From IMG/VR virus record IMGVR_UViG_3300036827_000072, positions 1 through 42,576 of that record: a stretch of DNA of 42,576 nt; one strand, 5' to 3'. Positions within the stretch are counted from its first letter, which is position 1, and the number at the start of each line of letters is the position of its first letter. Shown in pieces: positions 1,037-29,864 of this stretch. The notes under the pieces were generated by a model. The model searched no databases and had not been told where the DNA came from. It saw nothing but the letters and a program-made list of their open reading frames with translations. The stretch is from a virus. The translations under genes were made by a program, and so were the position numbers.

Positions 1037-1065
1037 AGCGTGTCTGGCAAGGCGATTGAGAGCAA
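1037..1065 (-). promoter_or_regulatory. Leftward promoter of the repressor-like gene
   Basis: On the minus strand, TTGCTC (1065-1060), a 17-bp spacer and CACGCT (1042-1037) lie 7 nt upstream of the ATG at 1029. No Shine-Dalgarno sequence is visible, consistent with a leaderless transcript. Confidence 0.5.
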
Positions 1066-1077
1066 CGTCGATATCCG

Positions 1078-1109
1078 CTAGATGAAAAGGTCTTGACTTT
1101 TCTATCTAG
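1078..1109. promoter_or_regulatory. Inverted repeat, candidate operator of the divergent switch
   Basis: CTAGATGAAAAG at 1078-1089 is the reverse complement of CTTTTCTATCTAG at 1097-1109 except for one inserted base. The spacer is 7 bp. The right arm overlaps the -35 element of the rightward promoter (1093-1098), so a bound dimer would block that promoter and could also affect the leftward one. This AT-rich palindrome stands out against the GC-rich background. Confidence 0.65.
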
Positions 1110-1121
1110 ACGATTTACGCT
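1093..1121 (+). promoter_or_regulatory. Rightward sigma-70-type promoter, leaderless
   Basis: TTGACT at 1093-1098 and TACGCT at 1116-1121 are separated by exactly 17 bp. The -10 ends 7 nt before the ATG at 1129, so transcription should begin at or next to the start codon. There is no Shine-Dalgarno sequence. It would drive the rightward HTH gene and the early operon. Confidence 0.7.
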
Positions 1122-1128
1122 GCCGCCC

Positions 1129-1521
1129 ATGAAGACAGTCACCCTCGGCGACCGCATCCGTGAAGCACGCGGTCACCTCACGCAAGACGAGCTCGCCGAC
1201 CGGATCCGCGCTCGTCGCCCGAAGATCAAGGTCTCGGGAGTCCGGATCTCGAGGTACGAGCGCGACGTTCAGGCGCCGCGGCTCTCGGTTGTTGTGGCGA
1301 TCGCCGAGGCCACCGACAAGCCCCTCGACTTCTTCCGCGTCGACGCCGAATCCGATGGCGGCGAGCAGGCCGACGGCGAAGCCGACGAGGAGGACTCGTC
1401 AGCCATGCTGCGCGCCGCCTACCACCTCGACCGTGCATCCGAGTTCGCGCTTGCGGACGACCTCAGGTCACGCGCGCGCCGCTCGATGCTCATCGCGGGA
1501 AAGCGCGGGATCCCAAAGTGA
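1129..1521 (+). CDS. XRE-family HTH regulator (130 aa)
   Basis: Residues 5-65 form an XRE HTH: LGDRIREARGHLTQDELADR, a short insert, VSGVRISRYERDVQAPRLSVVVAIAEA. The C-terminal half is acidic and then basic, with no protease-type repressor domain. The ATG at 1129 is preferred over an upstream in-frame TTG at 1093 because the promoter -10 sits at 1116-1121. The gene is first in the rightward early operon, the position of a Cro-like protein in lambdoid phages, but it could equally be an ImmR-like repressor. Its stop overlaps the next start by 4 bp. Confidence 0.8.
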   Translation: MKTVTLGDRIREARGHLTQDELADRIRARRPKIKVSGVRISRYERDVQAPRLSVVVAIAEATDKPLDFFRVDAESDGGEQADGEADEEDSSAMLRAAYHLDRASEFALADDLRSRARRSMLIAGKRGIPK

Positions 1522-1610
1522 TCCTCGGCCTCGCATTGCTGTTCGTCGCGTTCGTCGTGATCCCGACCGTGATGATCGCCGTCTTCATGTACCGGTGGGC
1601 GGCGCGGTGA
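1518..1610 (+). CDS. Micro membrane protein (30 aa, GTG start)
   Basis: A GTG overlaps the preceding TGA (GTGA), giving 30 residues, almost all hydrophobic (ILGLALLFVAFVVIPTVMIA) with a basic end. It is below usual gene-calling length. The support is its place in an unbroken chain of 4-bp overlaps and its membrane-helix composition. Confidence 0.4.
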   Translation: MILGLALLFVAFVVIPTVMIAVFMYRWAAR

Positions 1611-1669
1611 TCGTGCTGGGCTGCTTCGTCGTCCTGCTCGTCATCGCCGCCAGGTGGATCCACGCATGA
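1607..1669 (+). CDS. Micro membrane ORF (20 aa, GTG start)
   Basis: Encodes 20 residues dominated by a hydrophobic stretch (VLGCFVVLLVIAA). GTGA overlap upstream and ATGA overlap downstream. It may be a real micropeptide or only a reinitiation relay; the evidence is junction geometry alone. Confidence 0.3.
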   Translation: MIVLGCFVVLLVIAARWIHA

Positions 1670-1722
1670 GCTGGTCGGCCCCTAAGAAGCCGCGCCCGTC
1701 GTGGCTCTGGAGCCCGCGGTGA
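1666..1722 (+). CDS. Micro ORF (18 aa), basic and Trp/Pro-rich
   Basis: An ATG at 1666 overlaps the previous stop and reads 18 residues (MSWSAPKKPRPSWLWSPR) to a TGA that overlaps the GTG of the next gene. Tiny and unrecognised. It is listed because the coupling pattern continues through it. Confidence 0.25.
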   Translation: MSWSAPKKPRPSWLWSPR

Positions 1723-1892
1723 GCGGTGTCCAGATCGTTACGGAGATCGCCACCGAGCGCGTCCCGCGCCTCTACCGGGAGTGCCTGTATTGCGGCCAGC
1801 CGTCGATGGGCATCGCATGTCGCGCCCACCGTGACCTTCTGACGCTCGACCCGAACACCTACTCGATGCGCTTGCGCGCAACGTCGACCTAA
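1719..1892 (+). CDS. Small Cys/His protein (57 aa)
   Basis: The GTG at 1719 overlaps the preceding stop by 4 bp; a longer start at GTG 1701 is possible but lacks this coupling. The protein carries CLYC at about residues 26-29, followed by a Cys and a His in IACRAHRD, a likely zinc knuckle. Unknown function. Small zinc-knuckle proteins of this kind are frequent in early regions of actinophages. Confidence 0.55.
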   Translation: MSGVQIVTEIATERVPRLYRECLYCGQPSMGIACRAHRDLLTLDPNTYSMRLRATST

Positions 1893-1902
1893 AGGAGTCT
1901 CG

Positions 1903-2082
1903 ATGCATCGCCTTGTTGCCGAGGTCGGCTGGCCCGCCCTCATCGTGTGCGCAGTCCTGCTCGTCGCCGCGGCGCCGGCGGTCGTGAAGTGGATCCGGTT
2001 CGAGATCCAGCTGTCGCGTCGGGTGCGTGCCTATGAGGCTCGCATGGAAGCTGCGCGCACCGCGCGGATCCGCATCCCATGA
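1903..2082 (+). CDS. Small membrane protein (59 aa)
   Basis: A clear Shine-Dalgarno AAAGGAG at 1891-1897 precedes the ATG by 5 bp. One transmembrane segment at about residues 10-27 is followed by a basic amphipathic helix. The stop overlaps the recT start (ATGA). Unknown function; the strong ribosome-binding site may also serve the coupled recT. Confidence 0.6.
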   Translation: MHRLVAEVGWPALIVCAVLLVAAAPAVVKWIRFEIQLSRRVRAYEARMEAARTARIRIP

Positions 2083-3284
2083 GCAGCCAGGAAATCACTC
2101 AGCGGACGCAGGCGCAGGAGCTCGTCTCGCGCGTCCGCGGCGACGACTTCAAGCAGCAGGTCGCGCTCGCGCTCCCCGAAGGAGTGTCCGTCGACCGGTT
2201 CCTCCGCGCGACCGTCACGGCGCTGATGGCGAACCCCGACCTCGCCGCGCAGGCGAGCCACGACTCGATCTTCACCGCCCTCCTGCGCTCCGCCCAGGAC
2301 AACCTCGTCCCGGACGGCAAGGAGGCCGCGCTCGTCGTCTACAGCGGCAAGGCGCAGTACCTCCCGATGGTCGGCGGCCTCCGGAAGATCGCCGGCGAGC
2401 ACGGCTGGGCGCTCGTCACGGCCGTCGCCAAAGAGGGCGACGTGTTCGAGTACGAGCTCGGCCTCGACCCGAAGCTCCGCCACGTCCCTGCACGCCCCGG
2501 CGTCGATCGCGGCGCGACGATCGCAGCGTATTGCGTGGCGAGCCACCCGAACGGCCACCGCTTCGTCGAGGTGATGCTGCTCGACGAGCTCGAGCAGATC
2601 CGGGCGACGTCGAAGAAGCCATCGAGCGGCCCGTGGAAGGACTGGACCGACCGCATGTACGAGAAGACGGTCGGCAAGCGCGCGTTCGCGAAGCTGCCGC
2701 TCGGCGAGCTCGACGCACGCGTCCTCCGCGTCATGGCCGCCGCTGATGCAGATCCTGGCGAGGCGTCCCGACTGATCTACGGCTCAACCGAAACGCGGGC
2801 GCTCCCTTCGGCGCCGGCGGGTGTCGACCAGCAAACCACGGACGTGATGGCTACAGCCCCGCACTCCCCCGCGGGACACCACGCCGAGGCCGACGCCGAT
2901 CGTCAGCAGGCTGCAGCCGCGGCGCCCGGACAGGACGCGGCTGCAGCTCCTGACGCCGAGCCTGAGCCGTCGCTCGACGATGAGCCCGCACAGACGAGCT
3001 TCGAGGCGCCGGCGTCGGCCGGCGTCGACGACGACCCGATCGTCACCGCGGCGCGTGCCGCGTCACAGTTCGAGATCCCGAACGGGCAGCATCAGGGCCT
3101 CGCGCTGTCGGAGCTGCAGGCCAAGGGTGAGAAGGGCACGTCGTGGATCCGGTGGGCGCTCAAGCAGGGCGACAAGCTGAACCCCGACGCCTACCGCAGC
3201 GCGGTGTGGGCGTTCGCCCGGGTGTACGCGCCCGAGGTGTACCAGGAGGTTCTCGCCTTGCACGAAGCACAGGTGCAAGCGTGA
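2079..3284 (+). CDS. recT: RecT-family ssDNA annealing protein with C-terminal extension
   Basis: A 401-residue protein whose first ~235 residues match the RecT family. They include the stretch around LLRSAQDNLVPDGKEAAL and the QYLPMVGGLRKIA segment, which corresponds to the conserved QxxYxGL-like region. RecT anneals single-stranded DNA during phage recombination and recombination-dependent replication. After an acidic Ala/Pro-rich linker (about 245-325), the last ~70 residues (FEIPNGQHQG, then SWIRWALKQ) resemble the small C-terminal module found in exodeoxyribonuclease X and some RecT-like proteins. No RecE/lambda-exo partner is seen; the nuclease role may fall to the SbcD/SbcC-like pair downstream. 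Both ends overlap neighbouring genes by 4 bp. Confidence 0.88.
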   Translation: MSSQEITQRTQAQELVSRVRGDDFKQQVALALPEGVSVDRFLRATVTALMANPDLAAQASHDSIFTALLRSAQDNLVPDGKEAALVVYSGKAQYLPMVGGLRKIAGEHGWALVTAVAKEGDVFEYELGLDPKLRHVPARPGVDRGATIAAYCVASHPNGHRFVEVMLLDELEQIRATSKKPSSGPWKDWTDRMYEKTVGKRAFAKLPLGELDARVLRVMAAADADPGEASRLIYGSTETRALPSAPAGVDQQTTDVMATAPHSPAGHHAEADADRQQAAAAAPGQDAAAAPDAEPEPSLDDEPAQTSFEAPASAGVDDDPIVTAARAASQFEIPNGQHQGLALSELQAKGEKGTSWIRWALKQGDKLNPDAYRSAVWAFARVYAPEVYQEVLALHEAQVQA

Positions 3285-3493
3285 GCAGCGTCGACCACTA
3301 CAAGGCGGCCGAGGGTGACCTCGATCGTGCCGACCGGATCGCGAACAGCGATACCGCCTACGACGTCGACCGCCAGGCGCTCGTCGCGAACTACCTCGCT
3401 AGGGCGCAGGTGCACGCGACGCTCGCGCACGCCTACGCGGTCACCGAGGCGTCGAACGTCGGCGCCAAAGCGATCTACGACGGGCGGATCTGA
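3281..3493 (+). CDS. Hypothetical helical protein (70 aa, GTG start)
   Basis: The GTG overlaps the recT stop (GTGA). The predicted protein is mostly helical and Ala-rich (ALVANYLARAQVHATLAHAY). No family recognised. The constant spacing with recT suggests an accessory role in recombination, but this is only context. Confidence 0.6.
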   Translation: MSSVDHYKAAEGDLDRADRIANSDTAYDVDRQALVANYLARAQVHATLAHAYAVTEASNVGAKAIYDGRI

Positions 3494-3681
3494 TGAGCAC
3501 CCCGGAGCGTCACGGCGAGCTCGAGCAGCGGTCGAGCGTGAAGATCTCGACGACCGCAAAAGGCGACCCGCAGGTCGAAGTCAAGATCTACGACGGCACC
3601 AGCGAACCCGACGTCACGAAGATCCGCGAGCTCGCGGTCGACGCGTACAAGGCTGCACGGCAGGCAGTGGCGACGACATGA
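3493..3681 (+). CDS. Hypothetical protein (62 aa)
   Basis: The ATG shares its A with the preceding TGA (TGATG). It has a beta-rich middle (VKISTTAKGDPQVEVKIYDG) and a C-terminal helix. Small proteins with this strand pattern recur beside recT in actinobacterial phages. Function unknown. Confidence 0.6.
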   Translation: MSTPERHGELEQRSSVKISTTAKGDPQVEVKIYDGTSEPDVTKIRELAVDAYKAARQAVATT

Positions 3682-3875
3682 CGTTCGTCCGCCGCCGCTC
3701 GACGAAGGCTCGCGTGCGCCCTGGCGACATCCTCGAGACACACGCGGGGAAGCGGTTCACCTATCAGCACGTCGGCGTGCCCGGCACCTCGATCATCGTT
3801 CACCCGACCGGCACCACGCATCCGACCCGGCCGCGGCGCGTGGCCGGCTTCGCCGACTTGGAGTGGTCGCGGTGA
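3678..3875 (+). CDS. Small basic protein (65 aa)
   Basis: ATGA overlap with the gene before. The chain is very basic at the N-terminus (RRRSTKARVRPGD) and has a short beta-rich body, suggesting nucleic-acid binding. The stop lies inside the start region of the sbcD-like gene (GTG 3872). Confidence 0.55.
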   Translation: MTFVRRRSTKARVRPGDILETHAGKRFTYQHVGVPGTSIIVHPTGTTHPTRPRRVAGFADLEWSR

Positions 3876-5071
3876 CTCGCTTCCTCTGTGTCGGCGACCT
3901 GCACCTCGGCGCCGGCCCCGACTACGGCCGCGAGCCCGGCAACCGGCTGCGCGACCAGGAGTTCGTGTGGGAGCGCGTGCTCGAGCTCGCCGTCGAGCAC
4001 GACGTCGACGCCGTCCTCTTCGCCGGCGACGCGTTCCACCGCCGCCGCCCGACACCGGCGGAAATGATCGCGTTCCAGGGTCCGCTGCAGCGCTTCACGG
4101 CCGAGCATGACATCGAGGTGTGCGCGATCGCCGGCAACCACGACTGCGAGGCCGCCGACCTGCCGACCGCGCTCGACGTCTTCGGCCGCGACATCGACCT
4201 CTACACCCGCCCGGGTGTCTGGCACGCCGACGGCGGCGCGTCGGTGGCGTGTCTGCCGTGGTCGCCGGTGTCGCGCTTGGTCGCGGCGCGGAATGGTGGG
4301 GACCGTGATGACTTGAATCGTGAGGCGGCCGAGCTGCTGCTTGCAACCGCGCGCGGGCTTCGCGCTCAGATCCCGAGCGGACAGCCGGCCGTCCTCATGC
4401 TCCACTGGTCGATCTCGGGTGCGTCGACGCCGTCGGGTGTGATGACGGACGACTTCCGTGAGGTCGTGCTCGAACTGGCCCACCTTGAGCAGCTCGGCTT
4501 CGACGCGATCGTGGCGGGCCACATCCACAAGCCGCAGCGGCTCGACGTCGTCGAGGTCGGCGCGCAGTCTCCGATCTTCTACACCGGGTCGCCCGCGCCC
4601 GTCGACTTCGGCGAAGGTGAGAGCGAGCACGGCGTCTGGATCCTCGATGTCGGCGCCGGCGCGACGCGGCTGCAGTTCGTGCCGGTCGTGTCGCGTCCGT
4701 TCGTGACGATCGACTGCAGCGGCGTCGCGCTCTCGACCGCAGGCCCGCGCGTCGACCTGTGCCTCTTCGACGAGGACGAGGACGTCGCCGGGGCTGTCGT
4801 GCGTGTGCGGTACACGGCGACTGAGGAGCAGGCGCGGCGGATCGACCAGGGCGACATCCGTCGCACGCTCTACGACGCCGGCGCTCACAAGGTGCATTCG
4901 ATCCAGGCGACGATCGAGCGCGAGGATCGCGCACGCGTCGCCGGCGTCGACGAAGACCTCGACACGTTGGCCGCCCTGGATCTGTGGTTCGAGTCGGAGG
5001 TCATCGACGGCTGGTTGCGCGACGAGCTCCGCACCCTGTCGGCCCGCTACCTCGAAGAGGTCGGAGCGTGA
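3872..5071 (+). CDS. sbcD: SbcD/Mre11-like metallophosphoesterase nuclease
   Basis: A 399-residue protein with all calcineurin-type nuclease motifs: GDLHLG (Asp9, His11), AGDAFHR (Asp53), AGNHD (Asn89-Asp91) and GHIHKPQ (His217, His219). These bind two metal ions in Mre11/SbcD/T4 gp47 nucleases. The GTG at 3872 overlaps the previous stop; an upstream GTG at 3863 would add three residues. It sits directly before an SbcC-like ATPase with a 4-bp overlap, so the two should form the nuclease-ATPase complex that processes DNA ends and hairpins. The likely role is end resection to feed RecT. Confidence 0.9.
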   Translation: MTRFLCVGDLHLGAGPDYGREPGNRLRDQEFVWERVLELAVEHDVDAVLFAGDAFHRRRPTPAEMIAFQGPLQRFTAEHDIEVCAIAGNHDCEAADLPTALDVFGRDIDLYTRPGVWHADGGASVACLPWSPVSRLVAARNGGDRDDLNREAAELLLATARGLRAQIPSGQPAVLMLHWSISGASTPSGVMTDDFREVVLELAHLEQLGFDAIVAGHIHKPQRLDVVEVGAQSPIFYTGSPAPVDFGEGESEHGVWILDVGAGATRLQFVPVVSRPFVTIDCSGVALSTAGPRVDLCLFDEDEDVAGAVVRVRYTATEEQARRIDQGDIRRTLYDAGAHKVHSIQATIEREDRARVAGVDEDLDTLAALDLWFESEVIDGWLRDELRTLSARYLEEVGA

Positions 5072-7266
5072 ACCCGATCGCGATCCGGGCGACGAACGTG
5101 CGCACGTTCGAGAGCCTCGACCTCGACCTCCCCACCGGGTGCGTCGTGATCGCCGGCGAGAACGGCGCGGGCAAGTCGACGATCCTGAACCTGATCGACG
5201 TCGCGCTATTCGCCGAGCGCGGCGAGCTCCGCGCGTTGCTCTCGCTCGGCGAGGAGGAGCTGACGATCGAGCTGCAGTTCGAGCACGCCGGCGAGCTGTA
5301 CCGGGTGCGGCGCATGTACTCCGGCAAGGGCGCCGGCAAGACAACGCTCGACCTCGAGCACGCCGGCACCGGCGAGCCCAGCGACGAGCTCTGGATGCCG
5401 CTGACGCGTGAGACGGCGATCGCGACGCAGGCCTACCTCGAGCAGGTGCTCGGGCTTTCCCGGGCGACGTTCCGCGCGAGCTCGTTCCTCGCCCAGGGAG
5501 ACGGCGCCGCGTTCACCGACGCCCAGCCCCGAGACCGGAAGGCGATCCTCGCCGAGATCCTCGGGCTCGGTCTGTACGACCGCCTCCAGCAGCACGCACG
5601 CCTCGAGCTCAGGCCGGCCGAAGACCAGATCGTCGAGCTGCGCGGGAAGATCTCGCGCCTCGAGGAGGACGCCGCCGGCGCTACACAAGCACAGGCCGAC
5701 CTCGCGACCGCGCGCGGCGACCTGGCCGCGGCGCTCGAGCAGCACGCCGCCGCGGAGCAGCAGCTCGAGCAGGCCCAGCAGGCCCATGCTGTGAACGCCG
5801 CCGCCCACGAACGGTGGTTGCGCGCCGGAGCCACCCTCGCCGCCGTCCAGGCCGACCAGGAGCGCGCACGCGTCGCCTACGCCGCCGCAGTGCAGGCCGG
5901 CATCGACCGTGAGGGACGGCAGCGAGATCTCGACCAGGCGGCCGAGGTCGCCGCAACCGCGGCCGGGCTTGAGGAGCGCATCACCGCCGCCAACGCGATC
6001 GTCGGACTGGTCAAGGCCCGTCGCGAGCTCGACCGTGAAGCCGACCAGCGCGACCTCGCCCGCGAACGCCTCGCCCGTGAAGCGACGCAGCTGGGCGAGC
6101 ACGTCGCCGAGCTGAACCGCAAGGCCGACCACCTCGACGCGCACATCGGTGAGGCCTCAGAATGTGACCGCTGCGGACAGACCCTCGGCGCGGAAGCCGC
6201 GGCCCGTGCGGCGGCCAGCTACCGCGCCGAGGCAGCCGTCGCCGCCGACCGCGCCGACCTGATGGCCGCCGGCGACGTCGCCGAGCAGGAAGCCGTCGAC
6301 GAGCTCCGCGAACGCGCGGCCGCGATCGAGATCCCCGAGACGATGGAGGACACCGCCAGGCTCGGGCAGCTCCTCGCTGCGGCTCGTGCCGCCGGCGAAC
6401 GCCGCGCTGTGCTCGTCGAGCAGGTGCGGCAGCTCGCCGAGCAGGCGGCCACGGCCGCCGAGCTCGCGATCAAGCTGGCCCACGCCGCCGACGCGACGAA
6501 GGAGGCCGAGAGCGCGACGGCCGACGCGGCGGCCCAGGTCGGAGACGTCACGCAGCTCGAGCAGGCTGTCGCCGGCGCACGCGCAACCCTTGCGAACGCG
6601 AGCTATTCGGTGGCCGGCTACCGCGACCAGATCGCCCGCCTCGAAGTCGCCGAGCAGCACGCCGTCAAGGCGGCCGACGAGGCACAGCAGGCCACGGTCG
6701 AGATCAGCGCGATCGCGTTGCGCGTCGACGTGCTGAAGCTCGCCGACCGAGCGTTCGGCCGCGACGGCATCCCTGCCCTGATCGTCGAGAACGCCGCGAT
6801 CCCGCAGCTCGAGGTCGAGGCGAACCGGATCCTCGTCGAGCTCGGCGGTGCGACCGCCGACTGCCGCGTCGAGCTGCGCACGCAGCGCGCCCTCAAGACC
6901 GCCGATGCGCTGCGGGAGACGCTCGACATCGTGATCGTCACACCTGCCGGTGAGCGGCCGTACGAGTCGTTCTCGGGCGGCGAACGCACCAGGCTGAACC
7001 TCGCCCTCCGGATCGCACTCGCCAGGCTGCTCGCGCACCGTCGCGGCGCCGAGAGCAGGTTGCTCGCGATCGACGAGCCCGAGTTCCTCGACGAAGCCGG
7101 CGTCGCCCGCCTCGCCGACGTGCTCCGCGGCCTGTCGGGCGACTTCGACCGGATCCTCCTCGTCTCGCATCACCCGACGCTCGCCGCGGCGTTCGACCAG
7201 GCGATCGTCGTCGTCAAGGACGGCGACCGGTCCCGCGTCGGCGACGCCGTGGCGGTGCCAGCGTGA
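5068..7266 (+). CDS. sbcC: SbcC/Rad50-like ATPase
   Basis: A 732-residue ABC-type ATPase in two halves. Walker A GENGAGKST is at residues 30-38; the ABC signature SFSGGER is near 634-640 and Walker B RLLAIDEPE near 664-672. Between them lie two long coiled-coil arms rich in Ala/Glu/Gln/Arg, with a zinc hook CDRC at Cys366-Cys369. It is somewhat shorter than cellular SbcC (about 1000 residues), as in T4 gp46. It should dimerise through the hook and drive the SbcD-like nuclease. The GTG overlaps the sbcD stop. Confidence 0.9.
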   Translation: MNPIAIRATNVRTFESLDLDLPTGCVVIAGENGAGKSTILNLIDVALFAERGELRALLSLGEEELTIELQFEHAGELYRVRRMYSGKGAGKTTLDLEHAGTGEPSDELWMPLTRETAIATQAYLEQVLGLSRATFRASSFLAQGDGAAFTDAQPRDRKAILAEILGLGLYDRLQQHARLELRPAEDQIVELRGKISRLEEDAAGATQAQADLATARGDLAAALEQHAAAEQQLEQAQQAHAVNAAAHERWLRAGATLAAVQADQERARVAYAAAVQAGIDREGRQRDLDQAAEVAATAAGLEERITAANAIVGLVKARRELDREADQRDLARERLAREATQLGEHVAELNRKADHLDAHIGEASECDRCGQTLGAEAAARAAASYRAEAAVAADRADLMAAGDVAEQEAVDELRERAAAIEIPETMEDTARLGQLLAAARAAGERRAVLVEQVRQLAEQAATAAELAIKLAHAADATKEAESATADAAAQVGDVTQLEQAVAGARATLANASYSVAGYRDQIARLEVAEQHAVKAADEAQQATVEISAIALRVDVLKLADRAFGRDGIPALIVENAAIPQLEVEANRILVELGGATADCRVELRTQRALKTADALRETLDIVIVTPAGERPYESFSGGERTRLNLALRIALARLLAHRRGAESRLLAIDEPEFLDEAGVARLADVLRGLSGDFDRILLVSHHPTLAAAFDQAIVVVKDGDRSRVGDAVAVPA

Positions 7267-7598
7267 GCGCCCGCCGCGTGATCGTGTCCGGGCATGCTGT
7301 CGACCGGCTCCTCGAGCGCGACCCGAAGGTGCTGACCCGCGACGCCGTCGCGCACATCTTCCAGAACATCCAGGACGCGTTCCGCGAGGGCCGCACGTCG
7401 AAGCGCATCCCGCGCTGGGCCGTCAGCGACGGCCGCGACCGGATGCGGAACCGCTCCATACAGACGCTCAGGTACGCATGGAACCCTGGGCTGACGGCCT
7501 GCTACGTGCTCGTGTGGGCGCGCGCCGATGCCGACGGGAAGCGGTCGTGGATCGTCGTCACGACGCTCGGCGCCCAGACGGTCGAGGCTGCGGCGTGA
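7263..7598 (+). CDS. Hypothetical protein (111 aa)
   Basis: GTG start, coupled to the sbcC stop. The N-terminus SGHAVDRLLERDP resembles the start of small RelE/DUF4258-like folds, and the C-terminal half is beta-rich (ACYVLVWARADADG, SWIVVTTLG). No toxin active site can be assigned with confidence and no antitoxin partner is evident. Function unknown. Confidence 0.6.
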   Translation: MSARRVIVSGHAVDRLLERDPKVLTRDAVAHIFQNIQDAFREGRTSKRIPRWAVSDGRDRMRNRSIQTLRYAWNPGLTACYVLVWARADADGKRSWIVVTTLGAQTVEAAA

Positions 7599-7759
7599 CC
7601 GTGCACGCTCTCCGCTCCGGCCAGGTACTCCATGCCGACGCGCGCTGCCCGGCGGTGAAGGGGCCGACGTTCAAGCTCGACGAGCACGACGCGCTCTGGC
7701 ATGCGGCCAGGTGTGAGCATCCGCGCTGCGCGTCCGTGTTCGCCAGGAGCGCGTCGTGA
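7595..7759 (+). CDS. Small Cys/His protein (54 aa)
   Basis: GTGA overlap at both ends. It contains Cys18, Cys40 and Cys45 with nearby His residues (HAARCEHPRC), so it may bind zinc. No further recognition. Confidence 0.55.
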   Translation: MTVHALRSGQVLHADARCPAVKGPTFKLDEHDALWHAARCEHPRCASVFARSAS

Positions 7760-8040
7760 CAGCCGCGATCTACATCCCGTTCGCGGTCGCGTGGTTCCTG
7801 TGGTCGGGGCTTCTCGTTGGCTGCGGAGTCGCGGCCGGGTGGATGCTCCGCAAGATCTTCGTCGATTCAGCGGCGCGTCAGGATGAGCGGCAGCCCGTCT
7901 ATACGGCTCGTGTGAGGATCGACGGGCAGGACTATCCGCCGATGGTGGCTGAGGGTGTGCGGTGGCGGCTCGACCTGGCGCTCGCCGAGCTGCTCGACGA
8001 CCGGTCGATCAGGGCGTACACGCTCGAGGTGCAGCAGTGA
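7756..8040 (+). CDS. Membrane-anchored small protein (94 aa)
   Basis: GTG start. One N-terminal membrane segment (about residues 5-30) is followed by a soluble alpha/beta domain in which VYTARVRIDGQDYPPM forms likely strands. Such a tail could sit in the cytoplasm. Function unknown. Confidence 0.6.
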   Translation: MTAAIYIPFAVAWFLWSGLLVGCGVAAGWMLRKIFVDSAARQDERQPVYTARVRIDGQDYPPMVAEGVRWRLDLALAELLDDRSIRAYTLEVQQ

Positions 8041-8234
8041 CGTCGACGCTCGGCCTCGAGCTCAAAGGGCTGTACGACGTCGCGCGGTTGTCGCGCGAGC
8101 TCGGCATCAGCCGGCGCGCGGCCGAGGCGATCTGCCGGCAGATCCCGAAGCAGCAGGTGCCCGGGTTGCGGAAGGCGTACGTGCGTGGCGCCGACGTGCA
8201 GCACCTCCTCGACGACCATGTGGTCGCAGCATGA
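8037..8234 (+). CDS. HTH protein, excisionase-like (65 aa)
   Basis: The sequence from residue 13 (YDVARLSRELGISRRAAEAICRQ) fits a MerR/excisionase-type winged HTH: a helix, a turn after LGIS, and a recognition helix, then RKAYVRGADVQHLL as the wing and second helix. Recombination directionality factors of tyrosine integrases have this size and fold, and the integrase is three genes downstream on the same transcript. An Xis role is therefore plausible but not shown. GTG start overlapping the preceding stop. Confidence 0.65.
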   Translation: MTSTLGLELKGLYDVARLSRELGISRRAAEAICRQIPKQQVPGLRKAYVRGADVQHLLDDHVVAA

Positions 8235-10057: not shown

Positions 10058-10059
10058 CG

Positions 10060-10383
10060 TCAGCCTGCGAGGCGGTCGGCCGCACCGATGAGCGTGGACT
10101 GCTCAACGGCGGGCACGAGCTTCGCGGCGGTGACCTTCTCGAGGTACGCCGGGTCGCGCTCGCCCACGATCGCGCGGGCTCTCTCAAGGGCTTCCCGCTC
10201 TACCCGCTCGAGGTTCACTCGCGCTGCGACTTCGCGCGCCTCAAGATCTCCGAGCCGGCCGCCGGCCGTCGCGAAGCCGTCCGCCGACCGGTTCTGATCA
10301 AGCCCGTCTCGATGCGTCTGCACCTCGCTGGCAGCTTGAGCGACAGAGGCCTTTGCGGCAGCGATCTCCTCGACGAGTCCCAT
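10060..10383 (-). CDS. Leftward coiled-coil protein beside attP (107 aa)
   Basis: It reads leftward from the ATG at 10383. The chain is helical and rich in Ala/Glu/Arg with heptad-like spacing (EEIAAAKASVAQAASEVQ; EREALERARAIVGERD). No family recognised. The upstream region has no Shine-Dalgarno; instead a TACCCT box sits exactly 7 nt before the ATG, so the gene is probably leaderless and independently expressed. A longer in-frame start upstream (10494) lacks these signals. Its position between int and the putative attP keeps it linked to int in a prophage. Confidence 0.6.
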   Translation of the reverse strand: MGLVEEIAAAKASVAQAASEVQTHRDGLDQNRSADGFATAGGRLGDLEAREVAARVNLERVEREALERARAIVGERDPAYLEKVTAAKLVPAVEQSTLIGAADRLAG

Positions 10384-10390
10384 GCCCGAA

Positions 10391-10396
10391 AGGGTA
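10391..10396 (-). promoter_or_regulatory. -10-like TACCCT of the coiled-coil gene
   Basis: TACCCT on the minus strand ends 7 nt upstream of the ATG at 10383. No clear -35 match is visible. It is placed like the -10 boxes of the two regulators at 1029 and 1129. Confidence 0.4.
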
Positions 10397-10440
10397 TCCG
10401 GTCGGTTGGACGCTTCTCCGTTCCCGCGCTCCGGTCGCGT

Positions 10441-10626
10441 CCGCGTGATGCCTCGGTGATGACGGAAACCGCCGGGTGCGCCGCAACTGCGCATGGTTGC
10501 GTGAACCCGCGTTACGGCTCTGTTAGCTCGGCAGGGTCGCAGCTATCCCGATTTGGCTTTCTGAGCGGGCGCACTACCGCCCATGATGCGCACGAAACGT
10601 CACCGCGTGATGCCTCCGTGATGACG
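10441..10626. other. Candidate attP region with paired arm-type repeats
   Basis: A 24-bp direct repeat (one mismatch) lies at 10441-10464 and 10603-10626. Each copy holds two GTGATG units 11 bp apart (10445 and 10456; 10607 and 10618), one helical turn. Tyrosine integrases of the lambda/L5 type bind paired short arm sites around the attP core. The core would lie in the 138 bp between the copies. This segment is non-coding as far as I can see. No tRNA 3' end is obvious inside it. Confidence 0.5.
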
Positions 10627-10682
10627 CGAACGCCGGCCGACCGTGTGGCCGAGGACCTGTCAACGATCAAGGAGACGGATCA

Positions 10683-11201
10683 ATCCGCCTGCTACTCGCC
10701 AGCGTCTTCGCGGCGCTCGTCATCGTCCCATCCTGCTTCGCAGCTTCCCCTGACGCTCTGCACCGTAGGGAGCACCGCCAGGTGAAGTCCCTCCACCGCT
10801 ACGTCGGGACGATCCGGTTCTTCCGATCGCACCCGCGGCTCGCTCGGTCGCCGATCGGCCGGCGCGAGGTGCGCCGCGCCCGTGTGTGGGTGACCGTGAT
10901 CCGTCGCGAGCTCGCCGAGACGAAGGCGCAGCTGCAGCCGCGGCGGCCGCTGTTCGATCGTGGCTGGCTCGCTGAGGCGACGTGCATCCACGAGCACGAG
11001 GGCGCGTGGAACGCGAACACCGGCAACGGCTACTTCGGCGGCTTTCAGTTCCTGCTCGGCACGTGGGCGTCGGTTGGCGGCACGGTCCGCCCCGATCTCG
11101 CGTCGCCGCAGGAGCAGCTCCACCGCGCACGCCTCGTGTGGTTGCGTGATGGCGGGTCGTGGCGTGAGTGGGGCACCGCCGGAATGTGCGGGCTCGCGTG
11201 A
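10683..11201 (+). CDS. Secreted Rpf-like transglycosylase, probable ATC start
   Basis: The C-terminal domain matches resuscitation-promoting-factor/transglycosylase-like lysozyme folds: CIHEHEGAWNANTGNGYFGG, then FQFLLGTWASVGG and a final Cys. The Glu in this motif is the likely catalytic acid for cleaving peptidoglycan glycan strands. Canonical gene calling would start at GTG 10782, but the frame is open upstream and encodes a signal peptide (RLLLASVFAALVIVPSCFAA). The only well-placed start is ATC at 10683, 8 bp after AAGGAG (10669-10674); an in-frame TGA lies at 10608. With this start the protein has 172 residues. It could act in infection-phase wall opening or lysis. Confidence 0.75.
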   Translation: MRLLLASVFAALVIVPSCFAASPDALHRREHRQVKSLHRYVGTIRFFRSHPRLARSPIGRREVRRARVWVTVIRRELAETKAQLQPRRPLFDRGWLAEATCIHEHEGAWNANTGNGYFGGFQFLLGTWASVGGTVRPDLASPQEQLHRARLVWLRDGGSWREWGTAGMCGLA

Positions 11202-13571: not shown

Positions 13572-13639
13572 TGCCCAGGCCCGGACGGTTCGCCTGTGAC
13601 GCCCCTGGCGTGTTGCAAGACGTGGGAACAACGTCGTGA
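13571..13639 (+). CDS. Micro ORF (22 aa)
   Basis: TGATG junction upstream and GTGA junction downstream to the HTH gene at 13636. Encodes 22 residues. No recognisable feature. It may simply relay ribosomes to the next gene. Confidence 0.3.
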   Translation: MPRPGRFACDAPGVLQDVGTTS

Positions 13640-15229: not shown

Positions 15230-15257
15230 TCCCTCTCCCCGGAAGGAGCCACACCGC

Positions 15258-15734: not shown

Positions 15735-15763
15735 ACGAACCGACACTCGAGGAAGGGGTCACA

Positions 15764-23173: not shown

Positions 23174-23343
23174 CCCAGCTCTTCACCCGTGCACGCTGCA
23201 AGGCCGCCGCCCAGGCGGCCTTTTTCGTGGCCGGACTGATCCTTCTCCCGGTCGGCATCGCCGCGATCTACCTCCCGGCAGGTGTGATCGCCACCGGCGT
23301 CGAGTCGATCCTCGCCGGCGCCTACCTGAGAGGTGGCAGATGA
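23158..23343 (+). CDS. Small membrane protein between terL and portal, probable ATT start
   Basis: The frame ends with ATGA overlapping the portal start, the junction used throughout this genome. It encodes a basic N-terminus (RVRVTQLFTRARCK) and two hydrophobic stretches (AAFFVAGLILLPVGIAAIYL and PAGVIATGVESILAGAY). The best ribosome-binding site is GGAGG at 23147-23151, 6 bp before an ATT at 23158; no ATG/GTG/TTG lies nearby. A later in-frame GTG at 23227 would give 38 residues without a Shine-Dalgarno. Function unknown. Confidence 0.5.
   Translation: MRVRVTQLFTRARCKAAAQAAFFVAGLILLPVGIAAIYLPAGVIATGVESILAGAYLRGGR
23200..23225 (+). terminator. Strong terminator-like hairpin after terL
   Basis: AAGGCCGCC (23200-23208) pairs perfectly with GGCGGCCTT (23214-23222) around a 5-nt loop and is followed by further T residues. 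It lies within the small membrane ORF. It may reduce read-through from terminase into head genes or be a coincidence of the Ala-rich coding sequence. Confidence 0.5.
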
Positions 23344-24734
23344 GCACACCCCTGCTCTCCCAGATCAGCCGCGGCCTCGGCCTGCGTCAAGAGGTCGCCG
23401 GCGCGCTGTCGATCGAGGACGTCGCGAACCTCCTAGCCCTCGACAACCTCGGCTTCCCGTTCCTGAACCAGTCGCTGATCGGGAACCTCGAACCGATCGA
23501 GGGCGACTACGTCGGCCTCGCACGCGGCGCGATGAAGGGCGACGCGATCGTCTTCTCGTGCATCGCGCTGCGCGCGAAGATCCTTAGCGAGGCCCGGTTC
23601 GCGTTCCGCGACATCCAGGAGGACGGCCGCCCCGGCCAGCTCTCCACCGGGCCCGAGCTCGACATCCTCAAGGCACCGTGGTCGGGCGCGACGACCGGCG
23701 AGCTGATCGCGCGCGCCGAGGTCTACACCGCGATCGGCGGCAACTTCTACGCCGCGCGCAGGCCGAACGGCACGATCCGCGCGCTCCGCCCCGACTGGAC
23801 GTACATGGTCGTCGGCGTCGCCGACGGCGACCCCGAGAACGACGACCCCTGGTCGATCGACGCTGAGGTCATCGGCTTCCAGTACCACGAAGGCGGCCCG
23901 ATGCTCGGACGCGAGCCGCTGAACCTCCTCGCCGACGAGGTCGCGCACTTCGCACCGATGATCGACCCCGAGGCGCGCTTCCGCGGCATGTCGTGGCTGA
24001 CGCCGGTCGTCCGCGAGATCGAGGCCGACAAGTCGATGACGAAGCACAAGCTCGCGTTCCTCGAGCACGGCGGCACCTCGAACATGGTTGTGAAGAACCC
24101 CGAGCCCGACCTCGCGAAGTTCCAGGAGTGGGTGAAGAACTTCAAGACCGAGCACGGCAGTGTCTCGAACCGTTACAAGACGCTCTTCCTGCAGACAGGC
24201 ATCGACGTCGAGGTGATCGGCTCGAACCTGCAGGAGATCGACTTCAAGAACGTGCAAGGCGCAGGCGAGTCACGCATCGCCGCCGCGGCCGGCATCCACC
24301 CCGCCCTCGGCGGCTTCTCCGAAGGGCTGCAGGGATCGGCGCTCAACCGTGGCAACTTCGCCGAGATCCGCCGCAACTTCGGCGACATGCACGCCTCCCC
24401 GTGGTGGCGTGAGCTGTGCGGGTCGCTCGCGAAGATCATTGACGTCCCGGACCAGAAAGAGCTCTGGTACGACGCGCGCGACGTCGCCTTCCTCGCGCAA
24501 AACCACGTCGACGCGACGGCCTCGCAGAAGAACCAGGCGGAGACGCTTTCGACGATGTTCATGGCCGGCTGGGAGCCCGACTCGATCGTCGACTGGCTCC
24601 GCACTGGCGACATGACCGTGCTGAAGCACAGCGGCGTCGACTCCGTGCAGGTGCAGGGCACCGCGGCCGCCGAGCCGGCGGCGCAGAACGGCCACTCCGA
24701 CCGGCTGCCGGTCCTACCAAGGGAGCAATCATGA
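23340..24734 (+). CDS. Portal protein (HK97 family)
   Basis: 464 residues. Matches the HK97-type portal: the N-terminal crown region, FSCIALRAKILSEARF early in the chain, a central RFRGMSWLTPVVREI stem motif, and AAGIHPALGGFSEGLQGS near residue 315. The portal dodecamer forms the DNA channel at the head vertex. It follows terminase and overlaps the protease-capsid gene by 4 bp. Confidence 0.9.
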   Translation: MSTPLLSQISRGLGLRQEVAGALSIEDVANLLALDNLGFPFLNQSLIGNLEPIEGDYVGLARGAMKGDAIVFSCIALRAKILSEARFAFRDIQEDGRPGQLSTGPELDILKAPWSGATTGELIARAEVYTAIGGNFYAARRPNGTIRALRPDWTYMVVGVADGDPENDDPWSIDAEVIGFQYHEGGPMLGREPLNLLADEVAHFAPMIDPEARFRGMSWLTPVVREIEADKSMTKHKLAFLEHGGTSNMVVKNPEPDLAKFQEWVKNFKTEHGSVSNRYKTLFLQTGIDVEVIGSNLQEIDFKNVQGAGESRIAAAAGIHPALGGFSEGLQGSALNRGNFAEIRRNFGDMHASPWWRELCGSLAKIIDVPDQKELWYDARDVAFLAQNHVDATASQKNQAETLSTMFMAGWEPDSIVDWLRTGDMTVLKHSGVDSVQVQGTAAAEPAAQNGHSDRLPVLPREQS

Positions 24735-27364
24735 AACACGACTACCGGCTGCTCGGACAGCTCGTCTCCGAGACGCCTTGGCAGATCCTGCCGTCGAAGC
24801 TGCACGAGATCCAGCAGTTCTGGTCGCGCGTGCTCGCCGGCGACGTCCTGTCGGACGCGGAGATCGAAGAGATCACGTCGGCGGCGCAGCAGCGCCGCTC
24901 GAGGCCTGCGGCCGGCTCGATCGGTGTGCTGCCGCTCTACGGGTCGATCTTCCCGAAGGCGAACCTAATGGCCGACATCAGCGGCGGCACCTCGCTCGAC
25001 GCGTTCGCCGCGGTCTACCGCGGGATGATGGCCGACCCGAACATCGCCGCGGTCGTGATGGACGTCGACTCGCCCGGCGGGTCGGCGGCGATGCTCACCG
25101 AGACGGCCGCGATCATTCGCAAAGAGAAGACGAAGCCGCTCGTCGCGGTCGCGAACACGATGGCCGCCTCTGCGGCATTCGGTCTCGCCGCCCAGGCCGA
25201 TGAGTTCGTCGCGTCACCGTCAGCGGTTGTCGGCTCAGTCGGCACCTACATGCTCCACCAGGACCTGACCGCGGCGCTCGAGGCCGAGGGCGTGAAGATC
25301 ACGGCCATCCAGTCGAGCCCGGCAAAGACTGAGACGGCACCGTTCGTCGCTCTCTCCGACGAAGCGCAGCAGGCGCTGCAGCACATGGTCGACCAGTACC
25401 AGGCGATCTTCGTTTCTGACATCGCGAAGGGCCGCGGCACGACCGACGCGACTGTCCGGAAGAACTACGGCGACGGGCGCCTCCTCACGGCGCAGGACGC
25501 GCTGGCCGCTGGGATGGTCGACCGCGTCGACACGTTCGAGAAGGTCGTAACAGGGCTCCTCAAGAGCAACGGGTCGATGTCGATGGGCCGGTCGACGGCG
25601 TTCATTCCGGCCCGTGACGGCGAGCGCGAGCTCGTCGGGGTCGGCGAGGCGGTCGCGGCCGCGTCGGCTGACTTCCGGGCGATGCCGGTCGAGCAGCTCC
25701 GCGAGGTGTTCTTCGGGCTGCTCCCCGCCGGCGCGACGCCAGCGCCGAAGGGCTCGAGCGAGACGGACGCGCTCGCCGAGCCCGTCAAAGAACTCGACGC
25801 CATCCCGGCGTCAGTGCAAGCGACCGCAGCCGCGGTCACCAGCCGCGCGACGGCGACGGCACCTACCCCCAAGGCCAAGGAGGCCACAGTGAAGAGCAAG
25901 GAAGAGCTCGTCGCGCAGCGCGAGACCCTCGCGGCGCGGACGCAGGAGATCAACACCGAGCACTCGGGCACGCTGCTCGAGGGCGAGCCGCGCGTCGAGT
26001 ACGACGAGGCGATGCAGGCGATCGACCAGATCGACATCACCCTCGCCGACCTCGCGAAGCGGGAGGCCGACCAGGCCCGCATCGGGGCCGTCGCCGAGGC
26101 GAACAAGGACGCGATCGAGGGCGGCAACGGCGCAGTCGCGCGGAAGTCGTTCGGCACGAACGCCGACCGCAAGGGCCCCCAGAACATCTGGGACCTCGCG
26201 GGCTACCAGAAGCACGCACGCTCGCTCGACGAGCTCGCGGGCCTCTACGCGGACGGGGCGAAGCGGGCGAACGAGACGGTGCTGTACGCGACGGACAAGC
26301 AGGAGCGGCCGAAGTCGTTCGTCGAGCAGCTGCTCGGCGCCGACTCGAAGGATGCCCAGTTCGCCCAGCGGATGATCGTCACGTCCGACCCGGCGTTCGA
26401 CAAGGCGTTCGGGAAGCTCGTGATGGGCCGGCCGCTCTCGAACGCCGAGCAGTCGCTGATCAACCAGGCCGTCACGATCACGGGCCTCGGCGCGGAGACG
26501 CCGGTGCCGGTGCAGATCGACCCGACGGTGCTGCTCACCTCCGACGGGGTCGCGAACCCGATGCGGGCGATCAGCCGCAACGTCACGATCACCGGCAACA
26601 CCTGGAGGGGCATCTCGTCCGACGGCGTCACGGTCGACTACGCGGCGGAGCTCGCCGAGGTCACCGCACAGACGCCGACCTTCGACGCACCGGACGTCAC
26701 GGTCGTGAAGGCGCAGGCCGAGGTGCAGTTCTCGATCGAGGCCGACGAGGACTGGGGCGCGCTCCGGTCCGAGCTCGCGCTGATGTTCCAGGACGCGAAG
26801 GACACCAAGGAGGCGAACAAGTTCCTCTTCGGCGACGGCTCCGACGAGCCGGAAGGGCTGATCACGGCCCTCACGACCGACGGGACCTCGATCATCGACA
26901 CGGCGTCGGTGAACACCCTCGCGATCTCCGACCTCGACCTGGTCGTCGACGACCTGCCGCCGCGCTTCGACGCGAACGCGCAGTGGATCGGCAACCGCGG
27001 CGTCTACTCGGCGCTGCGGGCCCTCGCGGGCAGCCGGCTCGACTTCTGGGTGCCGCTCGCCCAGGGCTTCCGGAATCGGCCGCAGGGCACGACCGGCTAC
27101 ACCCTGATCGACTACCCCGTGAACGTCGCGTCCGAGATGTCGCGCGCGGTCACGACCGGGAGCGAGAAGGTGCTCGTCCTCGGCGACTTCGGCCGCGGCT
27201 TCGTGATCGTCGACCGGGTCGGCCTGAACGTCGAGCTCGACCCGCTCGTCCGCAACAGCAACGGGAAGCTGATCGGGGCGCGTGCGCTCTACGTCTACTT
27301 CCGCAACACCTCCGCGCTCCGGACGCCGAACGCGTTCCGGATGCTCCGGATCAAGCACAGCTAA
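24731..27364 (+). CDS. S49-type prohead protease fused to HK97 major capsid protein
   Basis: One 877-residue frame. Residues 1-~290 are an S49/SppA-like serine protease: DVDSPGGS (111-118), nucleophile Ser147 in TMAASAAFG, and Lys198 in AKTETAPF matching the catalytic Lys of this family. A Pro/Ala-rich linker (about 320-385) follows, then a delta/scaffold-like helical region (about 387-470), then the HK97-fold capsid (ITGLGAETPVPV through ALYVYFRN). The protease should mature the prohead. Fusions of this sort have been seen in some phages but are uncommon. An internal start at 25889 probably makes the capsid part separately. Confidence 0.88.
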   Translation: MKHDYRLLGQLVSETPWQILPSKLHEIQQFWSRVLAGDVLSDAEIEEITSAAQQRRSRPAAGSIGVLPLYGSIFPKANLMADISGGTSLDAFAAVYRGMMADPNIAAVVMDVDSPGGSAAMLTETAAIIRKEKTKPLVAVANTMAASAAFGLAAQADEFVASPSAVVGSVGTYMLHQDLTAALEAEGVKITAIQSSPAKTETAPFVALSDEAQQALQHMVDQYQAIFVSDIAKGRGTTDATVRKNYGDGRLLTAQDALAAGMVDRVDTFEKVVTGLLKSNGSMSMGRSTAFIPARDGERELVGVGEAVAAASADFRAMPVEQLREVFFGLLPAGATPAPKGSSETDALAEPVKELDAIPASVQATAAAVTSRATATAPTPKAKEATVKSKEELVAQRETLAARTQEINTEHSGTLLEGEPRVEYDEAMQAIDQIDITLADLAKREADQARIGAVAEANKDAIEGGNGAVARKSFGTNADRKGPQNIWDLAGYQKHARSLDELAGLYADGAKRANETVLYATDKQERPKSFVEQLLGADSKDAQFAQRMIVTSDPAFDKAFGKLVMGRPLSNAEQSLINQAVTITGLGAETPVPVQIDPTVLLTSDGVANPMRAISRNVTITGNTWRGISSDGVTVDYAAELAEVTAQTPTFDAPDVTVVKAQAEVQFSIEADEDWGALRSELALMFQDAKDTKEANKFLFGDGSDEPEGLITALTTDGTSIIDTASVNTLAISDLDLVVDDLPPRFDANAQWIGNRGVYSALRALAGSRLDFWVPLAQGFRNRPQGTTGYTLIDYPVNVASEMSRAVTTGSEKVLVLGDFGRGFVIVDRVGLNVELDPLVRNSNGKLIGARALYVYFRNTSALRTPNAFRMLRIKHS
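25889..27364 (+). CDS. Internal in-frame start: scaffold plus major capsid product (491 aa)
   Basis: Inside the fusion gene, AAGGAGG at 25877-25883 precedes an in-frame GTG at 25889 by 5 bp. Initiation here would give 491 residues: a charged coiled-coil delta-like domain (KSKEELVAQRETLAARTQE) followed by the capsid. This recalls lambda C/Nu3, where the scaffold is translated from inside the protease gene. It would solve the stoichiometry problem: many capsid subunits, few proteases. Confidence 0.72.
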   Translation: MKSKEELVAQRETLAARTQEINTEHSGTLLEGEPRVEYDEAMQAIDQIDITLADLAKREADQARIGAVAEANKDAIEGGNGAVARKSFGTNADRKGPQNIWDLAGYQKHARSLDELAGLYADGAKRANETVLYATDKQERPKSFVEQLLGADSKDAQFAQRMIVTSDPAFDKAFGKLVMGRPLSNAEQSLINQAVTITGLGAETPVPVQIDPTVLLTSDGVANPMRAISRNVTITGNTWRGISSDGVTVDYAAELAEVTAQTPTFDAPDVTVVKAQAEVQFSIEADEDWGALRSELALMFQDAKDTKEANKFLFGDGSDEPEGLITALTTDGTSIIDTASVNTLAISDLDLVVDDLPPRFDANAQWIGNRGVYSALRALAGSRLDFWVPLAQGFRNRPQGTTGYTLIDYPVNVASEMSRAVTTGSEKVLVLGDFGRGFVIVDRVGLNVELDPLVRNSNGKLIGARALYVYFRNTSALRTPNAFRMLRIKHS

Positions 27365-27383
27365 AGCGGCTGCGCTGACCAGT

Positions 27384-27415
27384 TCCGGCGGCGAGGCGAC
27401 GGTCTCGCCGCCGGA
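27384..27415 (+). terminator. Perfect 12-bp hairpin after the capsid gene
   Basis: TCCGGCGGCGAG (27384-27395) pairs with CTCGCCGCCGGA (27404-27415) around an 8-nt loop. No T-run follows, so it is not a canonical intrinsic terminator. It may stabilise the capsid mRNA or dampen downstream expression. Confidence 0.6.
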
Positions 27416-27443
27416 TCACTCAACCTCGAAAGGAAGCCACCGA

Positions 27444-27641
27444 ATGACGGAAGCAGAGAAGGGCACGCCCGGGATCGTCAGGGCGTGCACGTCGGCGCAG
27501 TTCGAGCACGCCGGCAACACGGTTCGGATCATCAAGGGCGAGACGACGGTCGAGGTCGGCCACTCGATCCTGAAGGGCCGCGAGCACATGTTCGAGCCGC
27601 TCGTCGTCGATTTCCCCGTCAAGCACGCGAAGGCGTCGTAG
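27444..27641 (+). CDS. Small virion-region protein (65 aa)
   Basis: A Shine-Dalgarno AAAGGAAG precedes the ATG. A beta-rich chain ([20 protein letters not shown]) ending with [11 protein letters not shown]. Small proteins at this place, right after the capsid, are often head decoration or connector accessory factors. No firm assignment. Confidence 0.65.
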
Positions 27642-27648
27642 CAACCCG

Positions 27649-29229
27649 ATGCCGACGTTCGTCCCCAGGGTCTTTCGCCAGCTCCGCGACGTCGCGATCT
27701 CTGCGCCGTCGGACGGGCAGGTGCCGACGTTCAACGAGTCAACAGGGAAGTGGGAGAACGCCGACCCGACCGGCGGCGGAGGGGGCGGCCAGGTGGACGC
27801 GGTCGTCGGGGGCACCGGCATGCATGTCGACGCGACGGATCCGGCGAACCCGGTCGTCGCGTTGTCGAGCGGTGCGCAGACGAGCCTTGGCCGGGCCGAT
27901 GCGGCTGCTGGTTACACGGACGCTGCTGTGGCTACTGAGGCTTCTGCTCGCGCGGCGGCAGACACCGCGGCCATCGCGACGGCTGAGGGTTACACGGATA
28001 CGCACGTCGCGAGCGAAGCTTCCGCGCGTGCCGCTGCCGACACGGCCGCCATCTCGACCGCAGAGGGCTATACCGACACTAACGTTGCCGCAGAGGCCTC
28101 AGCACGAGCCTCCGCGGTCACTGCGGCGATCGCGACTGCCGAGGGGTACACGGATACGGCAGTCACGGCCGAAGCATCGGCGCGCTCCACTGCGGACGGG
28201 GCGCTGACTCCGCAGACGCGCACGATCACCGCCGGGGCTGCGCTGACCGGCGGCGGCGCACTGACCGCTGACCTGACATTGGACGTCGCCGCCGACGGGT
28301 CGACGCTGGAGATCAACGCCGACGCTTTGCGGGTGAAGGACGGCGGGATCACGAACGCGAAGATCGCCGCTGCGGCGGGGATCCCGTACTCGAAGCTCAA
28401 CCTCGCCGCCAGCATCCTCGCCGGCGACTTCTCCGACGCTGAGATCGCGGCGCTAGCGGGGCTGACTTCTGCAGCGAACAAGCTGCCGTACTTCACAGGG
28501 TCCGGAACGGCTGCGCTGGCGGATCTGACCGCGTTCGCGCGGACGTTCCTCGACGATGCGGATGCATCGACGGTGTTGTCGACTTTGGGTGTGTCGGCGT
28601 TCATCAAGACGCTGCTGGATGACGCGGACGCGGCGACCGCACGCACTACTCTAGGTGTCGGCTCTGCGCTCGCAGACGTCGCGACGACCGTAGCCGGGCT
28701 GAACGCATCGCCGGTCAACGGCGAGATAGGCATGCTCCGCCTCGGGTCGACGCCGTACCAGTACATGAAGCTGATCTACGACTCGACGCGCGGGAAATGG
28801 GTCGGAGACCAGTTCCCAGCGATCTTCGCTCTCACGGGGACGATCGGATCGATCAGCGGAACGACTTACACCGCGCTAACGGACAGCCAAGTGGTGCGGA
28901 TGCTCATCCCGTTCTTCAACCTGATGTATACGGCTGGTCTGCGGCCCGAGGTGTTCCTTCAGGCGCAGATGACCAACAGCGGAAATACGTGCTTCGCGCG
29001 TGTGGCGCTTTTCGGAGTATCTGACGGAGACACTGGATTGACGTTGTACGACGTCGCCGGTGAGGTGTCTGTCGTCGCGTCTTCAGCAACGTATAAGGAG
29101 AGCGGCTGGTCGGCGTACCCGGCGCTGACGGTGACGAAGGATCATGCGGTCGCGATCGTTCAGGTGAAGGTTTCTGCAGGGACTGCTAACTATAGCGGCT
29201 TAGGCGGTTGGATGCGGTGGGTGGCCTAG
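27649..29229 (+). CDS. Fibre protein with tandem 26-residue repeats (526 aa)
   Basis: The N-terminus carries a Gly-rich hinge (residues 42-47) and a [13 protein letters not shown] motif common at fibre bases. Residues 88-191 are four 26-residue repeats ([18 protein letters not shown]...). Then come [14 protein letters not shown] and [19 protein letters not shown], typical of phage fibres, and a beta-rich tip of about 170 residues. The tip DNA is visibly richer in A/T. Fibres usually lie after the tail-tip genes; here the gene directly follows the capsid genes, which also fits a head fibre like phi29 gp8.5. It is probably trimeric and binds the host surface. Confidence 0.8.
27910..28221 (+). 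repeat. Four tandem 78-bp repeats in the fibre gene
   Basis: Each unit encodes 26 residues beginning GYTD. Units start at 27910, 27988, 28066 and 28144. The last is diverged at its end. Such repeats can expand or contract by recombination and set fibre length. Confidence 0.85.
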
Positions 29230-29852
29230 TGGATCAGGTAGCCGGGAAGATCAGCAACCTGGACCCGCTCGGCGCTGCGCGGCAGAAGCCTGCGGAACCG
29301 CGGTTCGGTGCGCAACCAGCCTGCCACGGTCACGCCGCGGCGGCGCGCGTCTCGTTCCTGCCGGAACACCTGACCGGTGACGAAGCCGGATACCACGACC
29401 AGGTGCGGCTCGTCGACGGCGGCGAAGTAGTCGCGCCATTGACTGTCGGCCAGTTCGGTATCGACGCGGTGCAGGATGTGAAGGTCGAAGCCGTGCAGCG
29501 GCCCGTCGAGAAGGTCGTGCTGGGCGACGTTCGGGAATCGCTCGCGAAGCATTCCCACGGTCGCGGGCGCGTACTCCGTCACGGTCAGATCACAACTGCG
29601 CTGGATGCTGGCCTCGAGCACCGCTGCGCCGACACCGTAGGAACAGACCCGTCTCGCGCCCACACGACGGATGACCTCCTCGACAGCTTCCGCGCGCTCG
29701 GACAGGTCGATGGTCACGTTCATGCCGAACGGCGACTCGGTCGCCCGCAGCGCATCCCAGCCTGCGGCGTCCAACTCCTCGAGGTCGGGAGCGATCGCCG
29801 TGAAGTCGAAGCGGTGACGGATCGTCAACGGGATCCGCGCGATCACATCCAC
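29226..29852 (-). CDS. Leftward SAM methyltransferase-like moron (208 aa)
   Basis: This gene lies on the opposite strand inside the late operon. The fold looks like a class I SAM methyltransferase: motif [11 protein letters not shown] (residues 67-76), acidic Glu93 at the end of strand 2 (LTVTEYAP), Asp113 in AQHDLLDG and strand 4 [11 protein letters not shown] take GTG 29852 as the start: TACACT (29864-29859) sits 6 nt upstream and no Shine-Dalgarno exists, suggesting a leaderless mRNA. Its stop and the fibre stop overlap within CTAG. With its own promoter and strand it is a classic moron, probably expressed in the prophage. Substrate unknown. Confidence 0.72.
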
Positions 29853-29858
29853 GCGCCG

Positions 29859-29864
29859 AGTGTA
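29859..29864 (-). promoter_or_regulatory. -10-like TACACT of the methyltransferase moron
   Basis: TACACT on the minus strand, 6 nt before the GTG at 29852. The -35 region at the right distance has only a GAC core (CAGACG). It falls in the short gap before the connector gene, overlapping nothing coding on the plus strand. Confidence 0.45.

Follow-up and report, generated by a model that had tools for sequence, protein, structure and literature searches.

Probable leaderless messages at the heads of divergent transcription units in a phage genome with a likely actinobacterial host

Four genes of a phage genome, among them both regulators of its presumed switch, carry a box of the form YACNCT 6–7 nt before the start codon. 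The box is a C-rich variant of the −10 element of sigma70 promoters (TANNNT or CANNNT), and it marks heads of divergent transcription units. In all likelihood, judged from the sequence, the boxes are the −10 elements of sigma70/SigA-type promoters whose transcripts are leaderless at the unit heads, as is common in actinobacteria, and do not by themselves mark prophage expression.

Genome, boxes and transcription units

The window (the whole stretch of DNA analysed, 42 576 nt, IMG/VR record IMGVR_UViG_3300036827_000072) begins and ends with the same 127 bases (1–127 and 42450–42576, a direct terminal repeat), so that it very probably represents an entire phage genome of about 42.4 kb that closes into a circle. 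Its GC content is 68%, and its genes encode a terminase, a portal protein, a fused protease–capsid protein, RecT, an SbcD-type protein, a tyrosine integrase and HTH proteins. The fusion is a single frame of 877 aa (24731–27364), with a head maturation protease at residues 3–289 and a major head protein at residues 366–874. A DNA-level search of the window against phages gave no match. Because the relatives of the terminase are mainly actinophages and the nearest cellular contig belongs to a metagenome-assembled genome labelled ‘Actinobacteria bacterium’, an actinobacterial host is likely, as deduced from these relatives.

The four boxes were all found at the positions and spacings originally given for them:

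1116–1121, plus strand: −10 box TACGCT, 7 nt 5′ of ATG 1129 (regP)
1037–1042, minus strand: −10 box CACGCT, 7 nt 5′ of ATG 1029 (regM)
10391–10396, minus strand: −10-like box TACCCT, 7 nt 5′ of ATG 10383, with a weak −35 (CGGAGA) at 18 nt
29859–29864, minus strand: −10-like box TACACT, 6 nt 5′ of GTG 29852, with a weak −35 (CAGACG) at 17 nt

A search of both strands of the whole window for YACNCT 5–8 nt ahead of any start with an open frame of 40 codons or more recovered exactly these four. The first T of TANNNT lies 12–13 nt before the start in three of the four genes; regM has CANNNT and falls outside the strict form of the motif.

The genes had been described as standing outside the operons, a description that the layout contradicts for two of them. 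RecT, SbcD, SbcC and the integrase come after regP, largely by way of stop–start overlaps, so regP heads a long operon; regM heads a leftward unit of three genes, the downstream members of which encode small membrane and zinc-ribbon proteins. Only the 10383 and 29852 genes are alone. The genome has just three leftward units (1029–87, 10383–10060 and 29852–29226), every one of which starts with a box, and the fourth box precedes the rightward gene regP. Six divergent heads are present in total; four have the box, and the two boxless ones, at 10782 and 29888, carry a Shine–Dalgarno (SD) sequence.

Translation signals and enrichment over chance

The four genes were originally said to have no SD sequence. 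This is borne out for regP, regM and the 10383 gene (SD duplex energies of −0.3, −1.5 and −3.8 at the three genes, the SD of regP being the second weakest in the genome) but not for the 29852 gene (−6.9), which has GGGGA 13–17 nt upstream of its GTG. This element is poorly placed: the box stands between it and the start. The companion statement, that operon genes use SD sequences or stop–start overlaps, holds in broad terms: it applies to 46 of the 57 other genes, which have one or both, whereas the remaining 11 have neither.

The boxes resemble −10 elements, and a transcription start would be expected within 1–2 nt of the start codon. To that extent the proposal that transcription begins at the start codon is upheld, though it can be advanced only weakly for 10383 and 29852. 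The match to TTGACA is five of six at regP (spacing 17 nt) and three of six at the other three boxes, a score that at 10383 and 29852 is no better than at random sites. Apart from the TTGACT/TACGCT pair of regP, no TANNNT site in the window reaches five −35 matches.

Comparison with shuffled sequence, which had been put forward as a check, gave an outcome that depended on the starts admitted. YACNCT before any open frame was not significant (four observed; shuffles gave 1.4 with frames of 100 codons to 3.3 with frames of 40 codons), since random frames are long at 68% GC. Enrichment was found on called gene starts. These were taken from a codon-usage script that is blind to promoters, with regM added by hand; all nearby in-frame starts were admitted, and the expectation was taken from other distances. 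YACNCT at 6–7 nt was found at five genes (0.41 expected, P=7×10⁻⁵), the fifth being at 41025, a downstream alternative and an unlikely start; this figure is partly circular, because the motif was drawn from the same four sites. The a priori motif TANNNT, to which the circularity does not apply, was found at three called starts (0.10 expected, P=2×10⁻⁴). At least three TANNNT at the six divergent heads has a probability of about 1×10⁻⁴ in local shuffles. TANNNT is scarce in the genome, with 30 sites on both strands against about 134 in dinucleotide shuffles (about fourfold rarer), perhaps through selection against stray −10 boxes or through codon usage. That all four boxes are chance matches, any open frame being matchable, would agree with the any-open-frame shuffles, but the excess of both motifs at gene starts and the rarity of TANNNT leave this reading scarcely credible.

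Switch regulators and lone leftward genes

The switch region contains the following features:

1129–1521, plus strand: regP, an XRE/HTH_3 regulator (Pfam HTH_3, E=1.1×10⁻⁸), the start of which was called independently of the box
1093–1098, plus strand: −35 TTGACT of the rightward switch promoter, matching at five of six positions, 17 nt from the −10
1073–1114, no strand assigned: inverted repeat with 20-nt arms, 75% complementary, forming a 42-nt dyad centred beside the regP −35
610–1029, minus strand: regM, 139 aa, first gene of the leftward unit and probably an XRE-type regulator
1060–1065, minus strand: possible −35 TTGCTC of regM, matching at three of six positions, 17 nt from CACGCT

The regP promoter is near ideal (TTGACT-17-TACGCT-7-ATG), and the prediction of a leaderless regP transcript is well supported by it; a leaderless transcript from 1029 is predicted with moderate confidence. 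RegM gave no match against Pfam. Among six proteins compared, it shows weak similarity to a regulator from a related prophage (E=0.001), and its residues 44–70 appear to resemble an XRE recognition region, so that it is probably a regulator of the XRE type. The dyad is a probable operator, as its position suggests, and since it sits on the −35 of regP this promoter may be repressible.

According to the preferred reading, the start point of these sigma70/SigA-type promoters would fall on the start codon, and the first gene of each boxed unit would be translated from a leaderless mRNA. TTGACT-17-TACGCT would drive regP and then the early operon until a regulator, presumably bound to the dyad over the −35, shut the promoter off; the leftward switch promoter would supply the opposing regulator. 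Leaderless initiation would then be just one of two routes by which the host commonly starts messages at unit heads. With a repressible regP promoter and operons that run in opposite directions, the two switch genes need not both be on in a lysogen. The actual start sites, the operator binding and the expression state of the four genes are all predictions from DNA sequence.

The geometry recurs in relatives of the RecT operon. In the viral contig L106 (RecT 55%, same operon order) the HTH gene at the head has TTGACA-17-CATAGT-9-ATG, and in a probable prophage of G019 (RecT 43%) a probable regulator 5′ of RecT has TTGACA-18-TATGCT-6-ATG, its start being the analyst's reading where the gene caller picked an upstream GTG. 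The head regulators of these relatives are barely similar in sequence, so the promoter geometry seems to persist although the regulators turn over. Palindromic repeats lie over the regulator promoter of the G019 prophage. Dense palindromic repeats (GTGGCC/TGGCCAC; GTGACGTCAC) also cover the switch promoters of the related phages L123 (16542–16660) and L106 (7346–7436), where they are likely operators. TANNNT stands 6–8 nt before ten head genes in G016 (0.7 expected) and before five in G019 (0.8 expected), both being genomes of a possible host class; this accords with the published share of leaderless, TANNNT-led genes in actinobacteria (PMC3160421). Among the relatives of the terminase, which mostly cover structural regions without the switch, the profile of box-to-start gaps had no clear peak. 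Searches of viral contigs found no relative of the 1129 or 1029 regulator, of the 10383 or 29852 gene or of the integrase.

The two lone genes are as follows:

10060–10383, minus strand: 107-aa gene with no assigned function, called on coding potential, between the integrase and the presumed attP
29226–29852, minus strand: 208-aa gene, possible SAM methyltransferase, part of a variable cassette within the structural operon

No homologue of the 10383 gene was found in the searches, and its start codon is without homologue support. The same is true of GTG 29852, in place of which a coding-potential caller favours GTG 29846. A leaderless transcript is thus proposed only weakly for either gene, each box having, when taken alone, a chance probability near 0.01–0.03. 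Only the 1129 and 1029 promoters might be truly leaderless, the boxes at 10396 and 29864 being accidental and other starts or promoters being used. The low −35 scores, the uncertain starts and the lack of homologues found for the two genes favour this alternative; it is nevertheless rather unlikely, because all three leftward heads are boxed at 6–7 nt, the joint TANNNT probability at the heads is the low one given above, and neither lone gene has a well-placed SD.

The 29852 gene had been called a methyltransferase moron. The cassette (27642–29887) consists of a tail-fibre-like gene and this leftward gene. The gene is missing from the two closest relatives, one of which (L003) joins the flanking genes directly while the other (L002) has other, rightward genes at this place; the cassette therefore fits a moron. 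The methyltransferase part of the name derives from a motif recognised by reading and from a sub-threshold match to OlsG (E=0.094), and accordingly applies less firmly. Two direct repeats of 29 nt, 90% identical (10441–10469 and 10603–10631), lie next to the integrase in a stretch without genes and are possible integrase arm sites around attP.

Lysogenic and lytic genes in cultured actinophages and related systems

Expression classes were compared in phages with RNA sequencing of lysogens, namely Sbash (PMC6426596) and CarolAnn, Blueberry and Utz (PMC6426606), together with the repressor region of Charlie. TANNNT at 5–9 nt was found at 5 of 12 lysogenically expressed heads, at 2 of 5 cro-side lytic heads and at 4 of 68 internal genes; these numbers are small, and the classes were assigned by the analyst from the text of the papers or, for the Charlie repressor, by annotation. 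The lysogenic genes with the box are CarolAnn 39, Blueberry 36, Utz 32 and the Charlie repressor; the first three all carry TACGCT at 8 nt and, being homologues, represent one event and not three. Like regM, the repressor genes of Sbash and Utz have CANNNT at 6–7 nt, and so does the unit head Blueberry 43. The box is therefore found on unit heads of either programme.

These data bear on the original prediction of a prophage-expressed set, made up of four genes that stand apart from the operons and translated from leaderless messages as lambda cI is from PRM. The boxes of the lysogenic genes just named would suit such a set, as would the small membrane and zinc-ribbon proteins downstream of regM and the position of the 29852 gene in a variable cassette. 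The switch genes, however, drive opposite operons, regP heading that of RecT, SbcDC and the integrase; the same box precedes Sbash 44 and Utz 37, lytic genes on the cro side, and the lysogenically expressed Sbash heads 30, 34 and 35 are without it. The passage that describes the corresponding pattern in cluster O mycobacteriophages (PMC4351075) makes no link to lysogeny. A prophage-expressed set is hence improbable, and leaderless geometry should not be read as lysogenic expression.

Lambda cI, expressed from PRM, is a phage regulator whose message is expected to lack a leader. It resembles the regulators of the present phage in this respect, but here the rightward divergent gene appears to be leaderless too, and the layout of the regulators is another one.

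The leaderless layout is familiar from earlier work on actinobacteria and on the phages that infect them, and the present phage is a genuine example of it. Leaderless genes, which account for more than 20% of genes in Actinobacteria, are marked by TANNNT some 12 bp ahead of the start (PMC3160421). The −10 motif, the distance and the high GC content of the leaderless genes described there for Actinobacteria and Deinococcus–Thermus are the same as in the phage; that set, however, consists of host genes, whereas the present examples are phage unit heads, regM with C for the first T. The cluster O phages have PL1/PR2, a divergent promoter pair that is predicted to be leaderless, and PL2, placed in like manner before a single leftward gene within the structural operon (PMC4351075). 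Both features are predicted for the present phage as well; no kinship in gene content is implied, and this phage differs in having an integrase and, as its divergent genes, two switch regulators. A leaderless gene has also been predicted in Adephagia (PMC11373665). In the immunity regions of Charlie, CarolAnn, Blueberry, Utz and Sbash, TANNNT or CANNNT stands 6–8 nt before repressor, cro-side and lysogenic genes; the boxes span expression classes, and the likeness drawn here is one of promoter geometry.

A more far-reaching notion, that strand-isolated heads in this phage group generally start without a leader and that this ties the translation of the switch genes to conditions such as stress or slow growth, which favour 70S initiation on leaderless mRNAs, so that the choice between lysis and lysogeny would sense the state of the ribosome, is highly doubtful. 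The analysis yields usable start codons and promoter positions for four genes that annotation would serve poorly, and a box 6–8 nt before the start may serve as a practical marker of unit heads in actinophages.
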